DNA of 37,158 nt from Ruminococcus sp. (lineage in GTDB: Bacteria; Bacillota; Clostridia; Oscillospirales; Acutalibacteraceae). Shown here one piece after another: positions 5,183 through 32,132 of this stretch. Below the pieces are notes generated by a model. That model was not told the origin of the DNA, ran no database searches, and worked only from the letters and a program-made list of their open reading frames with translations. The stretch is from contig JAILPC010000209.1 in assembly GCA_024690465.1 (NCBI GenBank), positions 1 through 37,158 of the forward strand, in the 5' to 3' direction. Positions within the stretch are counted from its first letter, which is position 1; each line of letters opens with the position of its first letter. The position numbers and the translations under genes were made by a program.

Positions 5183-6826
5183 ATGAAATCGACAATCGTA
5201 ATAGGTCACAAAAATCCCGATACCGACTCAATTTGTTCGGCTATCTGTTATGCTGATTTAAAACACAGAATAACAGGAGAGGAGTTTATCCCGTGCCGCG
5301 CGGGTGAAATCAACAGCGAAACTGAATTTGTGCTCAACCATTTCGGTGTTGAAGTTCCCAAGCTTATTGAGTCGCTTGAACCGACCATTTCCGATGTGAA
5401 TTTTCGCAAAATAGACGGAATATCCTCTCGGATTTCATTGAAGCGCGCGTGGGAGCATATGCGCGACAATAATATTCAGACCGTGCCGATATTAACGGAA
5501 CAAGGCAAAATAAAAGGTATTCTCACCCACGGCGACCAGGCTCGTTTCTATATGGAGGATCAGGACGCGAGCGCGCTGTCAAAAGCGAGAACTCCCTACA
5601 GCAACATAGCCGACACTCTCCAGGGCGAGGTTGTAGTCGGAGATCCCGACGAGTGTTTTACAAAGGGCAAGGTTGTTGTCGCGGCAGCTAATCCCGATAT
5701 AATGGAGGACTATATCGACGAGCATGATATGGTTTTGCTGGGCAACCGTTACGAGTCCCAGCTTTGCGCTATCGAGATGAACGCGGGCTGTATCGTAATC
5801 GGCCTCGGCGCGAAGGTTTCAAAGACGATTAAAAAAATTGCCAAAGAAGCGGGCTGTACCATAATTGTTTCTCCGCTTGATACATACACCTGCGCCAAGC
5901 TGATAAACCAGGCTGTGCCCGTAGGACACATAATGCGCAAAAACAACATTGTTTCGTTCAATCAGCATGATCTCATAACCGACGTGAAAACAGCGGTTTC
6001 AAAACACAGGATTCGTTATTTCCCGATTCTTGACGACGAAAACCGCTACCTCGGCATGATTTCACAGCGTAATTTTTTGAATATTGAACGTCAGAAGGTT
6101 ATTCTCGTGGACCACAACGAAAAAGGTCAGGCGATTGACGGCATCCGAAGCAGTGAGGTTGTCGAGGTAATCGACCACCACAGAATTGACTCAATCGAAA
6201 CGATGAACCCGATTTATTTCAGGAATCAGCCGCTCGGATGCACCTCGACTATAATAGCGATGATGTACAGCGAGAACAACCAGTCGATCTCGCCGAAGAT
6301 TGCGGGACTTCTGTGCTCGGCGATATTATCAGATACGCTCATGTTCCGCTCTCCGACCTGCACTCCCGTGGACGAGAGCACGGCGAGATTCCTCGCTCAG
6401 ATAGCGGGCATTGATATCGAAAATTATTCGACGGCTATGTTCAACGCGGGTTCCAAGCTCGGCAAAAAGACACCCGATGAGATTTTCCATATTGACTGCA
6501 AGCAGTTCAAGACAGAAGGCGTGTCTTTGGTAGTTTCTCAGGTTACAAGCGTGAGCGGAAAAGAACTCGAAAAAGTTAAGGTGAAAATGCTTCCGTATAT
6601 GGAGAACCTCCTGCCTAATTCGGGTATGGATATGCTGTTTATGATGCTTACCAATATTATTGGGGAAAGCACGGAGCTGCTGTTTGTCGGCACAAACGCC
6701 GCGAGCGTTGTCAGGACCGCTTTTGATGTTGAGCCCGAAACTTCCTGTGTGACGCTCAATGGTGTTGTCAGCCGAAAGAAACAGGTGCTCAGTCCGCTGA
6801 TAAACGCTATAGAAACACTGCAATAA
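5183..6826 (+). CDS. ppaC: Manganese-dependent inorganic pyrophosphatase (family II DHH/DHHA2 with CBS and DRTGG insert)
   Basis: GHKNPDTDSICSAICYA (DHH motif), two CBS-like segments, DHNEKGQA, EVIDHHRID, LCSAILSDTLMFRSPT. Confidence 0.94.
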   Translation: MKSTIVIGHKNPDTDSICSAICYADLKHRITGEEFIPCRAGEINSETEFVLNHFGVEVPKLIESLEPTISDVNFRKIDGISSRISLKRAWEHMRDNNIQTVPILTEQGKIKGILTHGDQARFYMEDQDASALSKARTPYSNIADTLQGEVVVGDPDECFTKGKVVVAAANPDIMEDYIDEHDMVLLGNRYESQLCAIEMNAGCIVIGLGAKVSKTIKKIAKEAGCTIIVSPLDTYTCAKLINQAVPVGHIMRKNNIVSFNQHDLITDVKTAVSKHRIRYFPILDDENRYLGMISQRNFLNIERQKVILVDHNEKGQAIDGIRSSEVVEVIDHHRIDSIETMNPIYFRNQPLGCTSTIIAMMYSENNQSISPKIAGLLCSAILSDTLMFRSPTCTPVDESTARFLAQIAGIDIENYSTAMFNAGSKLGKKTPDEIFHIDCKQFKTEGVSLVVSQVTSVSGKELEKVKVKMLPYMENLLPNSGMDMLFMMLTNIIGESTELLFVGTNAASVVRTAFDVEPETSCVTLNGVVSRKKQVLSPLINAIETLQ

Positions 6827-17661: not shown

Positions 17662-17694
17662 GTGACAAAACTCTGTGCTCCGCATCATTATAAT
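17662..17694 (+). promoter_or_regulatory. Candidate spoIIE promoter with long spacer
   Basis: GTGACA (17662-17667), 21-bp spacer, TATAAT (17689-17694), 33 bp before the likely start. Confidence 0.4.
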
Positions 17695-17726
17695 TGGTAT
17701 TACCAAAAGATAAAGGATGTTCAAAA

Positions 17727-20039
17727 ATGATTGCAGAGAGAACCTTAAGACGCTACAGAAAAGAAAACGCCGCGGCAATCCGCGAGATAATTGAGGCGGT
17801 TGTGCATTTTTTCCTCGGGATAATCGTCTGCCGCGGTGTGATTTTCGTGAACCTCGCGCCGTTCGGTTCAAGCTATGTTGCCGCCGTGCCGAGAAACAGG
17901 CTCATATGGTCGGTTGCGGGTACAGCTGTCGGCTACATAATCCTCAACCCGTCACAGCCGTTCCGCTATGTCGCGGTGACAATCGCGATTGCCGTAGTGC
18001 GCTGGACGCTCGAGGACGTTAAACTGCTCAGCCGTTCAATCCTCTACGCTCCGACGGTCGCGTTCCTTCCTATATTGGCCTCGGGTATTGCGATGATGTT
18101 CGTCAGCACAAGCACGCTGACTTATTTTTCAACCGTTGTTATCGAGGCGCTTCTCGCGGCAGGAGCGGCGTATTTTCTCAAAAAAAGCATGTTGATTGTT
18201 GATGAGGGCAGACGCTTCACCAGCCTCAGCCAGTCCGAAATGGCATGCATTGTACTCGCGGGCTGTGTGGTTATGCTGTCGCTCGGCAGCATTGAGGTCG
18301 AGCGCGTATCTCTCGGAAGGATCCTGTCTGTCGCGGTAATTATGGTTTGCGCGCGCTACGGCGGAGCGTCGGGCGGAGCGCTTGCGGGCGTCGCGACAGG
18401 CTCGGTGTTCGGGCTGACTGGCAGCGGATACGCGTTCATCTGCGCGGGCTACAGCTTCGGCGGACTTATCGGCGGTCTCTTCTCGGTGTCGGGCAAGCTC
18501 GGCGTGGCGGTGAGCTTTGTAATCTGCGACGCTATAATGCTCCTGTCGGCAGGCGACGGCTCGCTCGTGCTCCCGATGTTTATGGAAACGCTCGTCGGGC
18601 TCAGCATTTTTCTGATACTGCCGAAAGAGGTCGAGCGGTATATTACGCCGCTGTTTCTTCCGCGCGAGTGTACGAAGGGCGAGCGCTCACTGCGCAACTC
18701 CGTTGTAATGCGTCTGGGCTTTGCCTCAAACGCAATAGGAAATGTCATCGATTGCGTCAACAGCGTCAGCCGTGAGCTCAAAAAGCGTTACGCTCCAGAT
18801 GTCGATACCGTCTATGAGGGTGCCGCCGAGGACGTATGTAAAAACTGCGGAATGCGCGTTTACTGCTGGGAGCGGCACAAAAACATAACAAGAGAGGACT
18901 TCGCGCGGCTGTCCGCTCCGCTCAAATCTCAGGGCTTTGTCACCGAAAATGATGTCGAAAGCCTGTTTTCAAAAAAGTGCTGCCGTCAGATTGAGGTTGC
19001 CGACAGTATCAACCGCGGCTACTGCGACTACATCGGCGGGATAGAAGCGAGCGAGCGAGTCGGAGAAATCCGCTCAATGGTTGCGGGACAGTTCTCGGGG
19101 CTCTCCGAAATCCTGGGTGATTTATCCGCGGAGATTGAAAACTACAAAAGCTACGATCTCGATTCAAGCGCGCGTGTGCTTGAGTACCTCAGAGGTGAGG
19201 GACTTATGCCTGTCGAGTGCTCGTGTATGATTGACACAAACGGCAGAATGTCTGTTGAAATCCAGCTCGCCAAAAGCAGAACGGCGCTCAAAAAGAACGC
19301 GCTTGCACGTGATATCTCCGAGCTGTGCGCGAGGTGCTTTGATACTCCGCTCATCAGTGAAATCGGCACCCAAAAGCGCGTTGTTCTCAATGAAATTCCC
19401 GTGTATGATATCGAGGTTGGAGTTTTTCAGCACGTCTTCAACCGCGGAAAGCTCTGCGGCGACTGTGTCAACTGCTTCTCAAACGGATTCGGCGAGTTTG
19501 TTGCTATGATAAGCGACGGTATGGGCACGGGCGGCAGAGCGGCTGTGGACAGCAATATGACGGTTTCGGTTATGACGAAGCTCCTCAAGGCGGGGCTCAG
19601 CGAGGACTGTGCCCTCAAGGTTGTCAACTCCGCGCTTATGGTTAAGAGCGAGGACGAGAGCCTTTCAACTGTTGATTTGCTCAAGATAGATTTGTTCAGC
19701 GGCAAGGCTGTGTTCAACAAGGCGGGCGCGCCGTACTCATACATCAAAAAGAACGGCCACCTGCTTAAGAAAACCGCAACCTCATTGCCTGTCGGGATTC
19801 TGGGCAACGTGAGCTTTTCAAAGGAAAAAATCAAACTGTCAGGGGGAGATGTGGCTGTTATGTTATCCGACGGAGCTTTTTCAAACGATGAAAAATGGCT
19901 CGAAAAGCTGATACGTGACTTTTCAAACGACAGATGTTCAGACCTTGCGAAAGAGGTTGTAAACGAGGCAATAAAACACCGCGATGACGGTCACGACGAT
20001 GACATCACGGCGGTTGTAATAAGAATGATTGAGAATTAG
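17727..20039 (+). CDS. spoIIE: Stage II sporulation protein E (SpoIIE), PP2C-type serine phosphatase
   Basis: Many TM segments at the N-terminus, then a cytosolic part with CKNCGMRVYCWERH, a SpoIIE/PP2C domain MISDGMGTGGRAAVDSNMTVSVMTKLLKAGLSEDCALKVVNSAL, and HRDDGHDDDITAVVIR. Start refined from 17694 to ATG 17727. Confidence 0.95.
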   Translation: MIAERTLRRYRKENAAAIREIIEAVVHFFLGIIVCRGVIFVNLAPFGSSYVAAVPRNRLIWSVAGTAVGYIILNPSQPFRYVAVTIAIAVVRWTLEDVKLLSRSILYAPTVAFLPILASGIAMMFVSTSTLTYFSTVVIEALLAAGAAYFLKKSMLIVDEGRRFTSLSQSEMACIVLAGCVVMLSLGSIEVERVSLGRILSVAVIMVCARYGGASGGALAGVATGSVFGLTGSGYAFICAGYSFGGLIGGLFSVSGKLGVAVSFVICDAIMLLSAGDGSLVLPMFMETLVGLSIFLILPKEVERYITPLFLPRECTKGERSLRNSVVMRLGFASNAIGNVIDCVNSVSRELKKRYAPDVDTVYEGAAEDVCKNCGMRVYCWERHKNITREDFARLSAPLKSQGFVTENDVESLFSKKCCRQIEVADSINRGYCDYIGGIEASERVGEIRSMVAGQFSGLSEILGDLSAEIENYKSYDLDSSARVLEYLRGEGLMPVECSCMIDTNGRMSVEIQLAKSRTALKKNALARDISELCARCFDTPLISEIGTQKRVVLNEIPVYDIEVGVFQHVFNRGKLCGDCVNCFSNGFGEFVAMISDGMGTGGRAAVDSNMTVSVMTKLLKAGLSEDCALKVVNSALMVKSEDESLSTVDLLKIDLFSGKAVFNKAGAPYSYIKKNGHLLKKTATSLPVGILGNVSFSKEKIKLSGGDVAVMLSDGAFSNDEKWLEKLIRDFSNDRCSDLAKEVVNEAIKHRDDGHDDDITAVVIRMIEN

Positions 20040-20041
20040 TA

Positions 20042-20073
20042 AAAGGCTTCCCGCATGGAAGCCTTTGCTTTTT
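20042..20073 (+). terminator. Rho-independent terminator
   Basis: AAAGGCTTCC-CGCAT-GGAAGCCTTTGCTTTTT. Confidence 0.85.
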
Positions 20074-21154
20074 AGTCTTGTTTTTTGAGTTCCGTTTTTT
20101 CCGCTTCTTCCGCCTTTTTTGCCGCGTCTGTTTTGTCCTTAGAGAAGTACGCGAACGGAGCGGTGAAGAATACGACTGCGTAGTAGTTGATGAAGCGCCA
20201 GATAAGCGCTGCGCTCTTGAGAGTTCCGTGAATAAAGAACGGACCGAAGAATACGGTGAAGCTCAGCTCGGCGGCTCCCGAAGCTCCGGGAATCGGTATC
20301 ATTCCGCTGACGAGGTTTACGATAGCCTGGCAGGAGATAATCTGCACCGGACCTGCCTCGTTAAATCCGAGCGCGCGGTAAATAAAATACGATACCAGAA
20401 ACATTGCTACAAACTCGCAGAAGGTCAGGATAGACACCTTGACGAGCAGCTTTGGTTTCTTATAGATATCGCGGTTCGAGGTGTGGAAAGACTCGAGCTG
20501 CTTTTCAATGTTGGCGATTTTCTTGTCCACGTTCTTTACAATCTTGATTTTGTTCAGAATTTTCGCGACTAACATCACCAGCTTGTGCGACAGCTTTTCG
20601 GAGAAGCTGAAGATAAGGAACATCACCGTTACGCCTATCTGGGTAATGAACCCGAGAGCCAGCAGCACGATAATAAGTCTGATATTGTTGTTGGGCTGCG
20701 AGACTATGGTGCCGATGTTGATGAATACGGAGATGATGTTAATCAGCGTCAGTATTACCTGATACACCATAAACTTCTGGATAAGCCTCGACGAGCTGTA
20801 GCCGATAGGAACCTTCATCGAGTGCAAAAGATAGACCTGCATAGGCTGACCGCCGGTTGAGCTCGGCGTTACCGCGCACCAGAAAAATCCCATAAGCGCG
20901 ACCTTGACCGCGTCAATAAATCTGAACCTCGGGAAGTCGTCCTTTATGAATACAAATATTACCGACGCTTCAAAGAGCATAAACACAACCTCGGTTAAGA
21001 GCGCGACAACAATCCACTCCCATATAATAGGAGTGTTTGAGTTCAGCAGGTCTCTGAGTCCGTTTTCACTGAAAAAGAAGTAAAGGATTATTCCTACACA
21101 CAGACCGATTACCGCTATATTAAAAATATATTTTGGTTTAATATATTTTTTCAT
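20072..21154 (-). CDS. Lysylphosphatidylglycerol synthase TM-domain / flippase-like (YbhN/UPF0104-type) protein
   Basis: Polytopic; GFFWCAVTPSSTGGQPMQVYLL and GMIPIPGASGAAELSFTVFFGPF motifs characteristic of the family. Confidence 0.87.
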   Translation of the reverse strand: MKKYIKPKYIFNIAVIGLCVGIILYFFFSENGLRDLLNSNTPIIWEWIVVALLTEVVFMLFEASVIFVFIKDDFPRFRFIDAVKVALMGFFWCAVTPSSTGGQPMQVYLLHSMKVPIGYSSSRLIQKFMVYQVILTLINIISVFINIGTIVSQPNNNIRLIIVLLALGFITQIGVTVMFLIFSFSEKLSHKLVMLVAKILNKIKIVKNVDKKIANIEKQLESFHTSNRDIYKKPKLLVKVSILTFCEFVAMFLVSYFIYRALGFNEAGPVQIISCQAIVNLVSGMIPIPGASGAAELSFTVFFGPFFIHGTLKSAALIWRFINYYAVVFFTAPFAYFSKDKTDAAKKAEEAEKTELKKQD

Positions 21155-21177
21155 AAAATCCTCGGTTTGTTAATTGA

Positions 21178-22281
21178 TTATTTGCTGAGTATCTCGTTAA
21201 TAAGTTCAAAAATCTGCTCTGAGGCGTTGCCTCGGCAGGCTTTGCGGCAGCAATCGCTCATTTCCTTGAGCTTGCTGTCATAGTTAATCAGTGCGCTTAC
21301 TGTTTCGCCGGGGTGCTTGTTGAGCAGGAGCGCGACGCCGCTCTCAACAAGATATTCCGCGTTCTCGGCTTCCTGTCCGGGATACGCGCTGTAAATTGCC
21401 ATCGGCAGACCGCACTGAAGGCTTTCGCTTACGGTAAGTCCGCCCGGTTTTGTGATAATCAAGTCTGAGCAGTGCATATAGTCTTCGACGTTATCAACGA
21501 ATTTTTTGAGGATAGTCCTGTTGTCCTTCACCTTTTCAAACTTGTCGTAGAGCTTCTGGTTGTTGCCCGTGATAACGACGAACTGACAGTTTTCGGTTTT
21601 GTCGGCAATGTCTTTATATATGTCGAGTACTTCGGTAACTCCCCAGCTTCCAGCCATAAAGAGTATAACCTTGGTGTCTGGTTTAAGACCGAGTTTTTCC
21701 TTGAGTTCGTTTTTGTCGGGAGTTTTCGCGAACTTATCAAACGTCGGAATACCGAACGCGTGAACGTGAGAGCTGTTGATGTTGAACCTCGTCTTGAATG
21801 TAGCAACCATTTTTTCGCTGCTGACGATGTAATGGTCGATACCCTCAGCGATATATGTGTAGTGCGGAGCAAAATCCGTAACAAGCGATATAACGGGAAT
21901 GTCAATAACGCCTTTTGTTTTAAGCTCGCCGAGCATAGTTGTGGTGAACGCGTGACACGAGATAATAACGTCGGGTTTGTACGCCGCGATTTCGGGGTAG
22001 AGGTGTTTGCCTTTGCGCTGATTCACACCGTTGCATAGGTCGTTGAGTTTTGACTTTTTATCGGAGTTGATATAAAGCCTGCCGTAAAATTTCGGCGCGA
22101 ACTTTGCTAGCGTAGTGTAGCCGTCGCAAACCAATTTGTTGTAGCCTTTGCCGCCCAGCGCCAGACCGTCGGTTATCTTTACTTCTGCGTTATCGGAATT
22201 TGCCTCTATATATTCCTTCAATGCCGCTGCGGCCCTCTTGTGACCGCCTCCCGTTGAAGCTGAAAAAACCAAAATTCTCAT
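21178..22281 (-). CDS. Glycosyltransferase, MGDG synthase / UgtP-like (GT28)
   Basis: N-terminal ILVFSASTGGGHKRAAAALKEY; ITKPGGLTVSESLQCGLPMAIYSAYPGQEAENAEYL. Start refined to ATG 22281. Confidence 0.92.
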   Translation of the reverse strand: MRILVFSASTGGGHKRAAAALKEYIEANSDNAEVKITDGLALGGKGYNKLVCDGYTTLAKFAPKFYGRLYINSDKKSKLNDLCNGVNQRKGKHLYPEIAAYKPDVIISCHAFTTTMLGELKTKGVIDIPVISLVTDFAPHYTYIAEGIDHYIVSSEKMVATFKTRFNINSSHVHAFGIPTFDKFAKTPDKNELKEKLGLKPDTKVILFMAGSWGVTEVLDIYKDIADKTENCQFVVITGNNQKLYDKFEKVKDNRTILKKFVDNVEDYMHCSDLIITKPGGLTVSESLQCGLPMAIYSAYPGQEAENAEYLVESGVALLLNKHPGETVSALINYDSKLKEMSDCCRKACRGNASEQIFELINEILSK

Positions 22282-22522
22282 ACCGTTCTCCTTGAAAATA
22301 CAAAGCATAAATTATCCTGTGAAAAAAACGGCGGATATTTACGCATATACCTTATATAATTATATACAAAATTGCCTAAAATTTCAATATAAAACAGGAA
22401 AATGTTTTACAAATAAAAACGAAAAATCTTACGATTTACACTTTATTTTTTTCAATAAATGTTATATTATATATTTTGCGGGATTATACCCTATCCGATT
22501 AATACGCAAAGGAGGGCAGACT

Positions 22523-24307
22523 ATGGATAACTTCTATTCCGACAAATATAATCTTGATTTCTATTCAGACAGTAATCCAAGGGAGAGAAATACAGACTCA
22601 CCCGACAGGTCGTCACGCCCTCAGAGAGATGACCGCTTCTCCAAAGAAGCGCGCGCGAAAAGGGCTGCCCGAGCGAAAAAGCCGGCTCCTCAGCCTAAGG
22701 CTGTGCGCAAAAGAGAGGATAAAGCTCCAAAAAAGCAGGCAGTTTCACAATCCTCTCCTGCTCCCCGTAAGCAGCCGAAACAGAAGCCTCCGCGCAAACC
22801 CAAGCCCGCAAAAAAGAATATTTACCGCGCTCAGCGCAAGAAGAAAACAAAAGGACAGAAGATACTCACCGCTGTAATCACAGTGCTTGTTGTCGGCATA
22901 ATCGCTGGCACCGTGTGTGTGGTAGGGTACAATCTTTATCGTGAAAATAAAAAGAGACAGCCGTTCAAGTTCTCCGAGAATGTCAATATTTCGGGTATCA
23001 ATATCGGCGGACTGTCAATGGACGAAGCCAAAGCGAAGCTTAAAAAGAACAGTCTCAAGGCGGTAAATGATATTGACCTGACAATTTCTGCCAACGATAA
23101 AAAGAGCAGTTATACAAAATCCGACTTCACATATACGTTTAATTATGACGCGCCGCTCAGAGAGGCAAAACTATACAGCCTCAAGGAGCAGGGAATCTAT
23201 GATCCTCCCAAGGGCTCGACCGAGCCTAAGGACGAGGGCGAGCTCAAAATGCCCAAGCTCAGGCTTGAATACACATTTGACAAAAAGTCGGCGGCAAAGC
23301 TCGCGAAGGCAATTGCCAAAAAGGTAGATTGCGAACCCAAGAACGCTAAAGTAAAGAAGTTCCACCCCTTTTCGGACGAACGCTTTGAGTACAAGGAAGG
23401 CGACTACGGTTACAGCCTTGACAAAGAAGACTTAGCGTTAAAGATTACCAGGTTTATGCGCTCAGGCAACAATAAAAAGACAATCGAAGCCTCTGTTGAA
23501 CAGCTGACGCCGTCAATCACGGTTGCTGATTTGCAGGAGAAAATCACAGGTCTTTCGACAGCGACCTCGACCTCGTTCAACACCGAAAACGGCAACACAA
23601 ATATGAGAGTTGCGCTCAAGGCGTGCAACGGTTCAATCATTGAACCCGGGGAAACATGGTCGTTTAACGAGTGCACAGGCGACTCCAATGACCCGAAGAA
23701 CGGCTACAAAAAGGCGACTGTTATCACAGACCGCAAGCTCGAGGAAGGCTACGGAGGCGGAATCTGCCAGGCGAGCACAACTATTTTCCAGGCAGGCGCT
23801 TTCGCCAACATGGGCATTTACGAGCGTCACAACCATTACTGGGCGTCGGGTTACGCGTACTCGGGCGAGGACGCCACAATCGACTATCCCAACCTTGACG
23901 TCAAGCTCACCAACCCAACGCAGTATCAGATGTTTATCGAGTGCAGAATGGACGGCAACGTCCTCATCTGCAACATCTACGGCGTTCAGGAGGACTACTA
24001 CGACAATATCAAGATTTACACAAAGAACTACGATATAAAGAAGAAAAAAGGTTATTCAACCCACACCTACCGCGTTTTATATCTCGACGGAAAGATTGTC
24101 AGCGATGATATAATCTGCGAGTCGGATTACAGCCTTACGGACAAGCATGTTGTCCAGGAGGAGGACAAGGGTACATTCAGAACAAAGGTTGACGGCACAC
24201 AGCAGACCGAGACCGATCCGCCAAAGACTGAACCCAACACATCGGGCACGGAGGAAACCTCGTCGAGTGAAGACGCAAATGAAACAATAACAGAACCTGA
24301 TGAATAA
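22523..24307 (+). CDS. VanW family protein with putative peptidoglycan-binding region, single TM
   Basis: Basic Pro/Lys-rich N-terminus, TM ILTAVITVLVVGIIAGTVCVVGYNLY, VanW core SFNTENGNTNMRVALKACNGSIIEPGETWSFNECTG...YGGGICQASTTIFQAG. Start refined to ATG 22523 (AAAGGAGGG upstream). Confidence 0.93.
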   Translation: MDNFYSDKYNLDFYSDSNPRERNTDSPDRSSRPQRDDRFSKEARAKRAARAKKPAPQPKAVRKREDKAPKKQAVSQSSPAPRKQPKQKPPRKPKPAKKNIYRAQRKKKTKGQKILTAVITVLVVGIIAGTVCVVGYNLYRENKKRQPFKFSENVNISGINIGGLSMDEAKAKLKKNSLKAVNDIDLTISANDKKSSYTKSDFTYTFNYDAPLREAKLYSLKEQGIYDPPKGSTEPKDEGELKMPKLRLEYTFDKKSAAKLAKAIAKKVDCEPKNAKVKKFHPFSDERFEYKEGDYGYSLDKEDLALKITRFMRSGNNKKTIEASVEQLTPSITVADLQEKITGLSTATSTSFNTENGNTNMRVALKACNGSIIEPGETWSFNECTGDSNDPKNGYKKATVITDRKLEEGYGGGICQASTTIFQAGAFANMGIYERHNHYWASGYAYSGEDATIDYPNLDVKLTNPTQYQMFIECRMDGNVLICNIYGVQEDYYDNIKIYTKNYDIKKKKGYSTHTYRVLYLDGKIVSDDIICESDYSLTDKHVVQEEDKGTFRTKVDGTQQTETDPPKTEPNTSGTEETSSSEDANETITEPDE

Positions 24308-24311
24308 AATG

Positions 24312-24342
24312 ACCGTTCGCTTTTGCGGACGGTTTTTCTTTT
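24312..24342 (+). terminator. Rho-independent terminator
   Basis: ACCGTTCGC-TTTT-GCGGACGGTTTTTCTTTT. Confidence 0.85.
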
Positions 24343-24385
24343 GTATAAAAGCATATTTGACGCAAAAAATAATTGCGGTGATTAT

Positions 24386-25393
24386 ATGATTAACAGAGTG
24401 GGAAGATACACAATAAGCTTTGAAGAGCGACCGAGGATTAAAGGATTTGGTTCCGCGGCAGGCAAAAAGGAGTCGCAGGGACCTTTAAAAAACAACTTTG
24501 ACAAGCTCTATTATGACTCGTATATTGGACAGAATACTTTCGAGAAAGCCGAGAGTATGCTTCAGCAGGAGGCTTTGCTTAACGCGCTGAACCGCGCGGA
24601 GTGCAGGGCAGAGGACGTCGATTTTATTTTCGCGGGTGATTTGCTGAACCAGTGTATAAGCTCCAGCTTTGGCGTCAGGGATTTCAACATACCGTATCTC
24701 GGTCAGTACGGAGCGTGCTCCACAATGGCACAGGGGCTGATTATGGCGGCGGTTATGGTTGAGAGCGGAGCGGCAAACCAAGCGGCGTGCGTGACTTCCT
24801 CGCATTTCTGTACAGCCGAAAGGCAGTACAGATATCCGCTGGAGTACGGCGGTCAGCGCACTCCCACAGCACAGTGGACGGTGACAGGCTCGGGAAGCTG
24901 CGTTCTGGGGAAAGGCGGCAAAAACCCCTGTATCTCAGCGGCAACAGTCGGCAGAATTGCCGACCTCGGCGTGTCAGACCTCAACAATATGGGCGGAGCT
25001 ATGGCTCCCGCGGCGTCAAACACACTGACGGATTTTTTTAACGACACCGACACTCGTCCGCGTGACTATGATGCGATTTTTACGGGCGACCTCGGATATG
25101 TCGGCTCACAGTGTCTCTATGAGCTTATGTCAAAAGAGGGTATTGATATCCGCAGAAAGCACAGCGACTGCGGTCTGATGATATTTGACAGGGACAAGCA
25201 GGACGTTCACTCGGGCGGCTCGGGCTGCGGCTGCGCCGCGTCGGTTTTGTGCTCGACAATCCTGCCCGAAATGCTCAGCGGAAAATACAAAAATATTCTC
25301 TTTATAGCCACAGGCGCTTTGATGAGTCCGACCTCAGCTCAGCAGGGCGAAACAATCCCCGCGGTTGCTCATTTGGTTAACATTAAAATCTAA
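24386..25393 (+). CDS. spoVAD: Stage V sporulation protein AD
   Basis: Thiolase-like fold sequence: FAGDLLNQCISSSFGVRDFNIPYLGQYGACSTMAQGLIMAAVMVESGAANQAACVTSSHFCTAERQYRYPLEYGGQRTPTAQWTVTGSGS. Start refined to ATG 24386. Confidence 0.96.
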   Translation: MINRVGRYTISFEERPRIKGFGSAAGKKESQGPLKNNFDKLYYDSYIGQNTFEKAESMLQQEALLNALNRAECRAEDVDFIFAGDLLNQCISSSFGVRDFNIPYLGQYGACSTMAQGLIMAAVMVESGAANQAACVTSSHFCTAERQYRYPLEYGGQRTPTAQWTVTGSGSCVLGKGGKNPCISAATVGRIADLGVSDLNNMGGAMAPAASNTLTDFFNDTDTRPRDYDAIFTGDLGYVGSQCLYELMSKEGIDIRRKHSDCGLMIFDRDKQDVHSGGSGCGCAASVLCSTILPEMLSGKYKNILFIATGALMSPTSAQQGETIPAVAHLVNIKI

Positions 25394-26370: not shown

Positions 26371-26925
26371 ATGAAAAAGAAAACATTAATTATTTCTGAG
26401 ATTACGGGCTTTTTTGTCGTCGCGACAGGAGTGCTGTTGCTCTGGAATATATATGAGCTTACGGACAGGTCAACCCTCGGAGTGGTTTTCGGCGCAGTCA
26501 ATTCAAGCGTGTGGGAGAGAGCGAAGTGTATTTCGATATGCTTTATGCTCTGCGGTCTTTGCGAGCTTCTATGTGTCAGGGTGTATTTCAGAACCTTTGT
26601 CGTTTCAAAAACGCTCGGACTCTGCGTGTCACTGTTGTCGTTCATAATACCCGAAAGCATTTTGGGCGCGGATACTTACGCGGAGTTCCTTGTGCTCAGT
26701 GTTTCGGTGCTGTGCGGGTTTGGCTGTTCATATCTTCTGACGGTATTATCGGTTAATCTGCGTCAGCTGTTCGCTCCCGCGTGCTTTCTGTTAATGCTCA
26801 TTTTTATGATGACATTTTCATTCACGGCATTCGCCCCGAAGCTTTGGCTGTTCCGTGATCCGTACACAGGCTGCTACGGAGTTGTTCCGCGGTCGTTTGA
26901 CATGGGTGCGGTATATCTCGGATAA
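26371..26925 (+). CDS. Small polytopic membrane protein (DUF6512-like)
   Basis: LGVVFGAVNSSVWERAKCISICFML resembles the family pattern; about 5-6 TM segments. Confidence 0.6.
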   Translation: MKKKTLIISEITGFFVVATGVLLLWNIYELTDRSTLGVVFGAVNSSVWERAKCISICFMLCGLCELLCVRVYFRTFVVSKTLGLCVSLLSFIIPESILGADTYAEFLVLSVSVLCGFGCSYLLTVLSVNLRQLFAPACFLLMLIFMMTFSFTAFAPKLWLFRDPYTGCYGVVPRSFDMGAVYLG

Positions 26926-27047
26926 CAAAAACAGAAAATTTATTATTTTGTCTTAAAATAATTATGGTTGTGGTTTGGTTTGGTATACTATACTAGATAT
27001 TGTGTGTTTTTAAGATTACTTATTGTTTTGTAAGGACGCTGAATATT

Positions 27048-27794
27048 ATGGACGATAACAAAAGACAAAAAGACGACGTCATATTCGGACGTAATCCCGT
27101 GAGCGAGGCAGTCCGCTCTTCGAGAACTATCGACAAAATCCTTGTTGCCCGAGGCGACAGGAACGGCGCGGTGGTCGGCATACTCGCCAAGGCAAAAAAG
27201 AAAGACATTCCGATTAAAGAGGTTGACGTTAAAAAGCTCGACTTCCTTTCCGGCGGAGCTAATCATCAGGGGATAGTAGCTCTGACGGCGGTCAAAGAAT
27301 ACGCTTCGGTTGAGGATATCCTCAATCTTGCCGAACAAAGAGGAGAAAAGCCTTTTATAATTATTTTGGATGAAATCGAAGACCCGCACAATCTCGGCGC
27401 GATTATCCGCACAGCCGAGTGCGCGGGCGCTCACGGGGTTATAATTCCTAAACGCCGCAGCGCTGCTCTGAGCTACGCTGTCGGAAAGGCTTCCGCGGGC
27501 GCGGTTGAGTATGTTCCCGTCGCGAGAGTAACAAATATCGCGAACACATTGGACAAGCTCAAGAAGCTCGGGCTCTGGGTTTACGGAGCCGATATGAACG
27601 GTACTGATTATAATAAATGTGATTTCAGCTCGGCGGCAGCTCTTGTAATCGGCAACGAGGGTAAGGGTATAAGCCGTCTGGTGCGTGAAAAATGCGACGA
27701 AATCGTTTCGATCCCGATGAAGGGCAGGATAAACTCCCTCAATGCCTCTGTAGCGGCGGGAGTTTTGATGTACGCGGTATCATCAAAGAGGTGA
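27048..27794 (+). CDS. rlmB: 23S rRNA 2'-O-methyltransferase RlmB-type (SpoU/TrmH family)
   Basis: VIFGRNPVSEAVRS, NHQGIVAL, ILDEIEDPHNLGAIIRTAECAGAHGVIIPKRRSA, LVIGNEGKGISRLVREKCDEIVSIPMKGRINSLNASVAAGVLMYA. Start refined to ATG 27048. Confidence 0.95.
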   Translation: MDDNKRQKDDVIFGRNPVSEAVRSSRTIDKILVARGDRNGAVVGILAKAKKKDIPIKEVDVKKLDFLSGGANHQGIVALTAVKEYASVEDILNLAEQRGEKPFIIILDEIEDPHNLGAIIRTAECAGAHGVIIPKRRSAALSYAVGKASAGAVEYVPVARVTNIANTLDKLKKLGLWVYGADMNGTDYNKCDFSSAAALVIGNEGKGISRLVREKCDEIVSIPMKGRINSLNASVAAGVLMYAVSSKR

Positions 27795-27798
27795 GACA

Positions 27799-30390
27799 AT
27801 GAAGAACAAAAAGAATATCGAAGAATCACAGAAAATCGATATCTCGGCGCAGAGTGTAGCCGACGAGGAAAACGAAAAAAGTTTCAGACTGGAACAGATT
27901 CTTGCCGAAACACGTTTTATCTCAGAGCAGGACGCTATGCGCAAGGCTGCCGAAAAATACGGCGCCCGTCCCCAGATGGACGAGATATTCTCAACAACAG
28001 ATAAAAAGGTTCGTTTGACAAACAGCAATCCTCTCGAGCTTGATGAAGAGGAAAAGAAAGAGAAAAACGCTATTCGTGGCGAAAAGAACGCAACAACAAT
28101 GCAGGCTGAAATAATGATGGAGTCTTTCGAGAACGAAAACAACGTCATTAACCTCACGCCCGAGATTCCCGAGGGCGCGAAGGTTGCCGAGGACGTTATC
28201 GAGGACAGTCCCGAGCTCGCCGAGGTTGACCCCGAACTCGGTTCAATGTTCAGCGCGGGCGATAATTCGTTTGATATCCTCAGGAACAAGACAGGCGACA
28301 GCTCGCCGAGCGATAATAGCTACGAGAAGAAATACGGCGTCAAAAAGCCTGCTCCCGACGCGAAAACTGTTGAGTCAAAGGTTCCTGTTTACAGAAAGAA
28401 CAGCGATGTTGATGAAATCCACCTTAAAGCAGGCAGGTTTTCTCAGGTTGTCAGAGGAGAGTATGAGCATTATCTGCGCTCCAAGAACCCGTCCATTTCC
28501 GAGGTTATCAAGACCGAAATGGCAAAGGTTGAGGAGATTCGCGAGACAGGCGACACACGCTCCAAAAAAGAGAGAGTGCTCTCGGCTGTTGTCGGCTTCT
28601 TCTCTAACGACAATTCCGACGACTCTGACGTTCCCGTAAGCCAGGTCGTAACCGTTGAGGATTACGGCGGAGAAGAGGACACAAAGAGCATTATGTATGA
28701 GCTCAACCTCAATATCCGCAAGCTGTTTATAAGGGGAATGATAATGAGTGTTATCACATTCCTGCAGCTTGTTGTAACCGTGCTTATCGGCGTTATTCCC
28801 GACAAGATTGCTTCTGCCATGCCGTATGCTCCGATTGCGTACGCGGTGCTTAATCTGCTGTTTGCGGGAGCAGTAATATTTCTTAACCGTATTACGATTT
28901 ATTCGGGACTGACGCCGCTGGCTAAGCTCAAGGGCAACTCCGATACAGCCCTTGCCGTTGCCGCAATCGGAATGGGAATCCAGGCGCTGGTTTCGCTGTT
29001 CAGGCTCGGCGGAGTGACAACCTTCAACATCAATTTCTACAGCATTGTTGTCACATTCGGTTTTCTCTGCAACTGCATCGGCAAGCTGATGATGGTTCTC
29101 AGAGTAAAGGACAACTTCAAATTTATTTCAAGTGAAACACCGTCTCACGCGGTAAAGATATATACAAACGAGGAAATCGCCAAGAAAATGATGAGCGGCA
29201 CGCTCAACGACCGTCCTATCATAGGCTATCATCACAAAACAGGCTTCCTTTCAAACTTCCTGCGTATTTCCTACGCTCCAGACCCGAGCGAGGACCTCGC
29301 GGGCAAGGTTGCTCCTGTTACTGTTATCTGTTCTCTCGCTGTAGCTATTATCTACGGCGTGATGAATGTTTCATTCACTGGCGCTGTTGACACACTTGCG
29401 GTAATGACCGCTGTCAGCATTCCGATTTGTACGCTTCTCGCGGTCAATCTGCCGATGAGAATTATGTGCAGAAAGCTCAACAAAAAAGGCGCTATGGTAG
29501 CAGGCTATCCGTCTGTAAAACAGTTCTGCGACACCAACGCGGTTATGATAGATTCCAATGACCTTTATCCCGAAGGCTCTGTTAAGCTCGACGGAATCAA
29601 GACCTTCGCGAACCACCGCACCGACGAGAGCGTTCTCGCGGCGGCAGCAGTTCTCAAGGAAGCCCAGAGTCCGATGGCTACTGTCTTTAACCAGACTATG
29701 CTCAGCGAGGAGCGGGGTGTCAAGCTCCCCGAGGTTGAGTCCGTGCTCTATGAGGACACAATGGGACTGGTGGGCCGTGTTGACGGCGAGCGAATCCTTG
29801 TAGGAAACCGCACATTAATGCGCAAGTATAATATCGAAACTCCCTCAGAGGACTATGAAGAAAAGTATCTCATCGAGGGCAGACAGATTACATATCTCGC
29901 ACAGGCAGGCGAGCTGATTTCGATGTTCGTTACAACTTACACACCCGATCCCGAAATTATCAGCGCGCTGCGCAAGGGCGAGCAGAGAGGTCTCAGCTAC
30001 CTAATCCGCACAACCGACTGCAACATCACCGCAGAGCAGATTGCCGAGGACTTCGGTCTTTTCCTGCGCAGTATCAAGATTCTGCCGACAGGTCTCGGCA
30101 ACGTCTGCAAGGAAGCTCAGTCTCAGGTCGAGGAGAGGTCGCGCGCCTACCTCGGCACACGCGGAAAGATAAGCTCAATGGTTCGCGGTATCGCGGGTTG
30201 TGTTCACATCAAGAGCAACATTTCTCTCGCGATTGTTATTCAGCTCATCGCGATGGTATTAGGATTGCTTCTTGTCGCGACGCTCTGTCTGTACGCGGGC
30301 GCTTCCGTACTCGGAACGCTGCAGATTATGATTTACGCTTTGTTCTGGGCAGCGGCGGCACTGTTGTCGCCCCTAATCTGGAGGTCGTAA
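27799..30390 (+). CDS. Large membrane protein resembling a P1B-type (heavy-metal) ATPase with degenerate catalytic motifs and a long charged N-terminus
   Basis: Roughly 300-aa polar N-terminus, then paired TMs; AVSIPICTLLAVNLPMRIM in the CPC position; AVMIDSNDLYPEG in the DKTGTLTEG position; GLVGRVDGERILVGNRTLM N-domain-like; RTTDCNITAEQIAEDFGL in the TGDN position; C-terminal TM pair. Confidence 0.7.
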   Translation: MKNKKNIEESQKIDISAQSVADEENEKSFRLEQILAETRFISEQDAMRKAAEKYGARPQMDEIFSTTDKKVRLTNSNPLELDEEEKKEKNAIRGEKNATTMQAEIMMESFENENNVINLTPEIPEGAKVAEDVIEDSPELAEVDPELGSMFSAGDNSFDILRNKTGDSSPSDNSYEKKYGVKKPAPDAKTVESKVPVYRKNSDVDEIHLKAGRFSQVVRGEYEHYLRSKNPSISEVIKTEMAKVEEIRETGDTRSKKERVLSAVVGFFSNDNSDDSDVPVSQVVTVEDYGGEEDTKSIMYELNLNIRKLFIRGMIMSVITFLQLVVTVLIGVIPDKIASAMPYAPIAYAVLNLLFAGAVIFLNRITIYSGLTPLAKLKGNSDTALAVAAIGMGIQALVSLFRLGGVTTFNINFYSIVVTFGFLCNCIGKLMMVLRVKDNFKFISSETPSHAVKIYTNEEIAKKMMSGTLNDRPIIGYHHKTGFLSNFLRISYAPDPSEDLAGKVAPVTVICSLAVAIIYGVMNVSFTGAVDTLAVMTAVSIPICTLLAVNLPMRIMCRKLNKKGAMVAGYPSVKQFCDTNAVMIDSNDLYPEGSVKLDGIKTFANHRTDESVLAAAAVLKEAQSPMATVFNQTMLSEERGVKLPEVESVLYEDTMGLVGRVDGERILVGNRTLMRKYNIETPSEDYEEKYLIEGRQITYLAQAGELISMFVTTYTPDPEIISALRKGEQRGLSYLIRTTDCNITAEQIAEDFGLFLRSIKILPTGLGNVCKEAQSQVEERSRAYLGTRGKISSMVRGIAGCVHIKSNISLAIVIQLIAMVLGLLLVATLCLYAGASVLGTLQIMIYALFWAAAALLSPLIWRS

Positions 30391-31328: not shown

Positions 31329-32132
31329 ATGGCGGACTTTAACGAATATGTTGAGAGTTTGCCCGACTATAACGTCTTTGACGATAATTCCGCCCCCGCG
31401 CCTGTTGAGCGCAGACGTCCCGCGCGCAGGGGAAACAAAAGACGCGAAAGAAGCCCTCTCGATTATAACGACGGTTTCGGAATCTACGTCGAGCGCAAGG
31501 TGAAGGGACACGATTATCTGATCGTGTTTTGGTTCCCGATTCTTATATTATGGCTCGAGTTTTCTTTGCGTCTCGGCTGCGGTGAGGACTTCGGTTTCAA
31601 CAGCATAATCTACACAGGCGCGTTTTCAATGGTATTCGCCTGCGTGCTGACTGTTATCTGTACGTTCGGCGGACGTGTGTTCAATCTTGTGCTGAATAAC
31701 CTGTTCACTTTTATACTAACAATATGGTTTGTGATTCAGCTCCTATATCAGGGAGCCGAGGGTAAATTCATGAGGGTGAGCGACTTTACGAACGCTGACC
31801 TGTCAAAGCTCTTCGCGCAGATGGGGGACAGGCTCTGGATAATGATTGTTATGTTCCTGCCGTTTCTGTTCAGCGTTGTTATCGGCTGGAAAGTTTTCAC
31901 GTTCAGACGTATCCGTATCCCCGCGAAAATATCTTTGATACTTTTAGCGGTACTGATTCAGCTGTCGACCGCGACAATGATATCCCTCAGCAAAAATAAC
32001 CCCTATGTCGATACGAGCTACAACCTCTACAACAAGGAGTTCAAGATTAACGAGTCGGCTGACAGATTCGGTATCCTCACAACACAGCGGCTCGATATAA
32101 CCAATATGTTTACAAAAGGTACTAAAGGCTGA
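31329..32132 (+). CDS. Membrane protein resembling the TM domain of LTA synthase/sulfatase-family proteins, lacking the catalytic domain
   Basis: Five TM segments followed by YNLYNKEFKINESADRFGILTTQRLDITNMF, like the linker after the TM bundle in LtaS-type proteins; then stop. Confidence 0.55.
   Translation: MADFNEYVESLPDYNVFDDNSAPAPVERRRPARRGNKRRERSPLDYNDGFGIYVERKVKGHDYLIVFWFPILILWLEFSLRLGCGEDFGFNSIIYTGAFSMVFACVLTVICTFGGRVFNLVLNNLFTFILTIWFVIQLLYQGAEGKFMRVSDFTNADLSKLFAQMGDRLWIMIVMFLPFLFSVVIGWKVFTFRRIRIPAKISLILLAVLIQLSTATMISLSKNNPYVDTSYNLYNKEFKINESADRFGILTTQRLDITNMFTKGTKG

Follow-up and report, generated by a model that had tools for sequence, protein, structure and literature searches.

A pseudo-ATPase family derived from P1B-type pumps and retained across one order of Clostridia

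An unusually invariant catalytic core is the defining mark of P-type ATPases. What, then, is a protein that keeps the architecture of a heavy-metal (P1B) ATPase and carries other residues at its catalytic places? This question is raised by an open reading frame in the window, by which we mean the whole stretch of DNA analyzed here (37,158 nucleotides of contig JAILPC010000209.1, assembly GCA_024690465.1, from Ruminococcus sp.). The original prediction, made from the letters of this stretch, took the product for a P-ATPase fold that no longer pumps and acts instead as a sensor, scaffold or envelope regulator. Sequence comparison across the order in which the family occurs gives good support to its pseudoenzyme status, makes it very likely that these proteins would neither pump nor hydrolyze ATP, and makes a scaffold or sensor role plausible. 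The features discussed below are collected in Table 1.

Table 1. Features of the pseudo-ATPase gene and its upstream neighbor (window coordinates; residue numbers refer to the pseudo-ATPase).
Feature	Coordinates	Strand	Basis
rlmB, 23S rRNA Gm2251 methyltransferase; start probably 27048	27000..27794	+	TIGR00186, 252 bits
Pseudo-P1B-ATPase ORF, 863 aa	27799..30390	+	NCBIfam and PDB profile matches, predicted structure
Cytosolic N-terminal extension, aa 1-290; charged, Cys-free, pLDDT mostly low	27799..28668	+	model, composition
Conserved linear motif LEQILAE, aa 31-37	27889..27909	+	motif count versus shuffles
TM1-4, homologous to MA, MB, M1 and M2 of P1B pumps	28672..29130	+	model, 3rfu profile alignment, region profile
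Reduced A domain without TGE, aa 445-500	29131..29298	+	model, length comparison
M3-M4 helices, aa 501-562; CPC replaced by SIPIC (aa 540-544), only Pro retained	29299..29484	+	family alignment
Dead phosphorylation site DSNDLYP, aa 585-591	29551..29571	+	family alignment
N domain, aa 606-710; HP lost (QSP, aa 623-625); G656 and G669 invariant	29614..29928	+	family alignment
Y714, opposite Asp of the EDP segment in CopA 3rfu	29938..29940	+	profile alignment, conservation count
TTDCN, aa 738-742; family motif T-x-D-x-N replacing TGDN	30010..30024	+	family alignment
Site of GDGxND segment deletion, aa 762-790	30082..30168	+	family alignment, 3rfu profile alignment
M5-M6 helices, aa 791-860; W850 nearly invariant	30169..30378	+	family alignment, model

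A Pfam search with the window protein returned nothing above the cut-off, and a weak match to a HAD model was obtained for just 2 of 39 family members; its absence from Pfam leaves the family easily overlooked in annotations. NCBIfam models of CopA-type ATPases matched 32 of the 39 members and, for the window protein, gave E values of 4.4e-20 (CopA) and 1.4e-18 (TIGR01525, residues ~499-777), with scores of 67-71 bits that lie far below the curated cut-offs of 346-1316 bits (67 versus 346 for TIGR01525). The match to Legionella CopA (PDB 3rfu) went from 8.6e-15 with the single sequence to 5.3e-29 with the family profile, whose alignment falls into three collinear parts: TM1-4 with MA-M2, M3-M4 together with the P and N domains, and M5. 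Collinearity of the membrane region, M3-M4, P, N and M5 is what the family shares with CopA-type Cu+ ATPases (TIGR01511/TIGR01525, PRK10671; PDB 3rfu and 4bbj). A profile built from TM1-4 alone recovers canonical P1B pumps, so this membrane region, too, descends from P1B pumps; its stretch GLTPLxKxKGNSDT lies opposite the GWxSLxxGxxNMxT region of CopA. An AlphaFold2 model built from a 39-sequence alignment has pLDDT values mostly of 85-94 from residue 290 onward and mostly below 50 in the tail, and predicts eight membrane helices, as in CopA-type pumps. P1B pumps are its top matches in the PDB (4bbj, E=6e-19 over 681 columns), with modest global TM-scores (0.3-0.5), which a disordered tail, the lack of an A domain and freely oriented domains would lead one to expect. 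In both sequence and predicted fold, P-ATPase-type P and N domains accompany a P1B membrane core, so the structure prediction proposed as a check sided with the domain order first read from the sequence. Judged by these matches, P1B (CopA-type) homology covers the membrane helices, the P domain and the N domain and is far beyond chance.

The catalytic motifs are another matter. DKTGT, TGDN, GDGxND and CPC were absent from their catalytic places in all 40 aligned members, drawn from 20 families of the order, and in all 129 distinct proteins surveyed by pattern, and no intermediates between the family and canonical pumps were seen. Canonical pumps from other orders carry the four motifs alike, with DKTGT in 18/18 of them versus 0/129 in the family; close homologs with an intact DKTGT, which would have spoken against the original prediction, did not turn up among these proteins. 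At the dead phosphorylation site the family consensus is D/S-x-[DE]-[LIV]-[FY]-P, versus DKTGTLT in pumps, and the column of the phosphorylated Asp holds D in the window protein but in only 6 of 21 lineages. The replacement at this site had been recognized from the start, as had that of TGDN, although both need new positions: 29551-29571 for DSNDLYP instead of 29545-29580, and 30010-30024 for TTDCN instead of 30013-30024. The same holds for PIC in place of CPC, where the replacement stands and the register is uncertain by 2 residues, CPC lying opposite either I541-P542-I543 or I543-C544-T545. The M4 proline is kept in 17/21 lineages, C544 shows no conservation across the family, a CPC-type pair at the M4 site is absent from every lineage examined, and no conserved polar ion site was found in M4-M6 of the family alignment. 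GDGxND had been described as not visible; beyond that, ~60 aa lie between the TGD position and M5 in all members, and therefore the segment has been deleted (the one match to the pattern among the 129 members lies inside an N-terminal tail). Two losses had been missed. The A-domain region is cut to about 60 aa (49-73 among members) with no TGE at its place, the TGE strings of members sitting in the tail or other regions, and the HP nucleotide-binding motif is gone, with QSP in the window protein and variable residues in other members. Unlike CopA, the family thus lacks CPC, DKTGT, TGE, HP, TGDN and GDGxND and has a shrunken A domain; by alignment, nothing is left of the motifs that serve to bind metal, Mg2+ and ATP or to phosphorylate and dephosphorylate the protein.

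In a published survey of P-type ATPases, DKTGT was found in 99.77% of sequences, and the 22 of 9,634 with an altered motif were reported as single point mutations (PMC3896382). Those relatives, like the family described here, have no intact DKTGT, but no family with wholesale loss is among them (PMC3896382). Lost motifs with a fold and selection that are kept are a trait of pseudoenzymes in general (PMC10211241, a review whose text has no occurrence of "P-type ATPase"), and we found no published description of a pseudo-P1B family in the open-access literature. The nearest precedent found is ERMA/TMEM94, a eukaryotic ER-resident protein whose P-type fold lacks TGES and GDGVND and has a shorter A-domain loop, whereas DKQGIL is kept with an Asp that is needed; it is reported to move Mg2+ (PMC13322241). 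A degenerate P-type fold, lost counterparts of TGE and GDGxND and a shortened A domain are common to both, and, as ERMA/TMEM94 illustrates, motif loss alone is no proof of absent transport (PMC13322241). The bacterial proteins could accordingly be imagined as noncanonical active transporters that move an ion or a lipid with another energy source or by an unusual use of nucleotides. On the one hand, the family conserves an intact eight-helix core, the M4 proline is present in most lineages, and ERMA is reported as a Mg2+ carrier without TGES and GDGVND (PMC13322241). On the other hand, ERMA keeps and needs its catalytic Asp, which is not conserved in the bacterial family; the motif IV (GDG) segment is deleted; and M4-M6 offer no conserved polar ion site. 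We therefore regard active transport as unlikely. The family nevertheless provides a prokaryotic comparison for the debated ERMA/TMEM94.

Several positions are newly conserved in the family: Y714 and D740 (20/21 lineages each), N742 (18/21), G656 and G669 (21/21 each), and W850. At the dead site, D586 is found in 15/21 lineages and D/E588 in 18/21, a pattern that resembles the DxD of HAD motif I, so the P domain might have reverted to a soluble-type HAD phosphatase using D586-x-[DE]588. This is very improbable and we reject it: the deletion takes away motif IV (GDGxxD), motif III has no conserved Lys, and in the window protein and its genus residue 586 is mostly S or A.

Full-length matches to the family profile were obtained in 12/12 genomes of the order, which is most likely Oscillospirales in GTDB terms (the Ruminococcus bromii group), versus 0/231 genomes of other orders in the class. 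Within the order, 281/297 genomes match at 1e-60; 10 of the remaining 16 hold divergent full-length members and 6 are without the gene, which puts the family in about 291/297 genomes (about 98%), a rate that hinges on profile sensitivity and comes mostly from draft MAGs. Named relatives are Ruminococcus bromii and Ruminococcus sp. FMBCY1, along with many rumen or gut MAGs, and members across the order combine a full-length profile match with the absence of catalytic motifs and with rlmB upstream. When a helix-region profile was run on 300 genomes of the phylum, the matches outside the order were, where checked, canonical pumps only; with the 0/231 count, this led us to reject full-length members outside the order. 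In a tree of the M3-N/P region, 27 pseudo-ATPases were split from 44 canonical pumps with 100/100 support; the tree is midpoint-rooted, its deep branches within the family are long and in part poorly resolved, and it singles out no exact sister pump. On this phylogeny, which had been among the checks proposed, the pseudo-ATPases are a single monophyletic family, and the wholesale motif loss, conserved across the whole order, apparently occurred once.

Selection on the gene is strong and purifying. NG86 dN/dS for residues 291-863 was 0.034-0.111 in six pairs of genus members, rough values given that synonymous sites are saturated in several pairs, and the dead phosphorylation region (residues 563-605) was among the most constrained, at 0.01-0.08. 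The loss of all catalytic motifs could in principle mark a heavy-metal pump gene decaying into a pseudogene. Against this stand open frames that remain long in nearly all members, retention throughout the order, and dN/dS of 0.03-0.11, with some of the tightest constraint around the dead site; the idea keeps next to no credit and was rejected, in line with the early remark that the frame is long and intact. One relative (G057, L022:4164-5255, 5268-6560) has an in-frame TGA that separates a 363-aa half, with the tail and membrane part, from a 430-aa half; gene fission, gene disruption or an error in sequencing may account for it.

Canonical P1B pumps scored above the family cut-off in 30/30 genomes tested; they coexist with the pseudo-ATPase, and therefore it does not replace them. 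Many pseudoenzymes regulate active relatives, and a pump in every genome tested would suit a regulatory subunit that tunes CopA- or ZntA-like pumps by pairing with them. However, pumps are nearly ubiquitous and equally present in the 6 genomes where the pseudo-ATPase is missing, so that co-occurrence says little, and pump genes are unlinked to the pseudo-ATPase in the loci examined. We consider such pairing improbable.

In place of the N-terminal metal-binding domains of pumps such as CopA, the family has a charged extension that is mostly disordered by prediction (AlphaFold2 pLDDT). As originally described, these ~300 residues are unlike metal-binding domains: residues 1-285 of the window protein hold 59 D/E, 42 K/R and no Cys, and no CxxC metal site was found in the tails of 64 members. 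Tail length ranges from almost none to several hundred residues across the family. One short element, [LVI][DE][DEQ]ILxE, occurs in the tails of 20/45 non-redundant members (strict pattern), versus 0.04 expected in shuffles, an expectation that ignores shared descent. Lineages at 15-20% identity have it in common although their tails otherwise show little conservation, and this speaks for a short motif with a function; it is plausibly docking-like, and the tail may use it to dock a partner. With a degenerate DNA pattern over 14 genomes, the motif was found near the N terminus of family members, and most other matches that were read were known proteins, e.g., SecA and CorC-like proteins; in 1.6 Mb of loci it was absent from neighboring genes except for one encoding a CBS-type protein. 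The alternative that the motif is a general N-terminal tag of many proteins was rejected on these two scans; the strict DNA pattern misses the window version RLEQILAE, which makes the first of them a partial test.

rlmB, the gene of an rRNA methylase and not of an envelope function, is the constant neighbor of the pseudo-ATPase. It lies directly upstream on the same strand in 20/20 loci (L021-L040, 19 other families) and, by an automatic rule, in 150/157 loci with enough flank; the four failures inspected comprised three overlapping frames and one larger gap, and one more was the split gene of L022. The gap is usually within about 60 bp and measures 4 bp in the window. The six genomes without the pseudo-ATPase are also without RlmB over the family cut-off, whereas 7/7 controls with the gene have it. 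Since the two genes adjoin, a contig missing from a draft assembly could explain single cases of co-absence, but neither the pseudo-ATPase nor a recognizable RlmB was found in G322 and G331, both species of genus g213 in family f2, which argues for true co-loss in that genus. Both the adjacency and the co-absence are what one would expect of a protein that anchors RlmB, or the large ribosomal subunit during its assembly, to the membrane or partners with either, and so ties 23S rRNA modification to the membrane. Yet most of the control bacteria, which come from outside the order, have an RlmB-type enzyme, so RlmB does not need the pseudo-ATPase, the adjacency may be plain operon inertia, and the co-absence may again come down to missing contigs; we hold an anchoring role to be quite unlikely.

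Retention in nearly every species of the order, together with catalytic loss, means that the protein has some other job, and its near-universality suggests a core function that sets the order apart from other Clostridia. We favor, with a probability of roughly 0.6, a P1B-derived pseudo-ATPase that serves as a non-pumping membrane scaffold or sensor. A copper-type P1B ATPase would have turned into a pseudoenzyme once, near the root of the order, and then been kept almost everywhere. Anchored in the membrane, neither pumping nor hydrolyzing ATP, it would recruit a partner through [LVI]-[DE]-[DEQ]-I-L-x-E in its disordered cytosolic tail, while the N/P head, with Y714, D740, N742 and [DE]588-x-[FY]590-P591, would bind a partner or small ligand that shifts the position of the head. 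Co-expression with rlmB may give constitutive, growth-linked production. The sensor, scaffold or envelope-regulator role first proposed would fit a disordered N terminus with a conserved linear motif, although of an envelope role the data gave no sign. Among bacteria, the family would be a plain example of a pump fold put to another use. It is a doubtful further step to see in it a membrane hub that defines the clade, is genetically inseparable from rlmB and uses a new docking motif in its disordered tail to connect the membrane with ribosome maturation or growth state; if true, a pump fold would have been turned into a signaling scaffold.

Downstream genes vary by family (EF-G-like, Lon, radical SAM, SpoIID, YebC, nitroreductase, rpe), and therefore the context names no pathway; an assignment of function from these neighbors was rejected. 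In the window, a 267-aa membrane protein with no Pfam or NCBIfam family match is encoded past rpe (31329-32132), and a DUF6512 membrane protein just 5' of rlmB (26371-26925). Farther upstream (17694-25393), SpoIIE, LPG synthase-like, MGDG synthase-like, VanW-domain and SpoVAD genes stand in a row, and this set of sporulation and wall/lipid genes fits a spore former related to Ruminococcus bromii.
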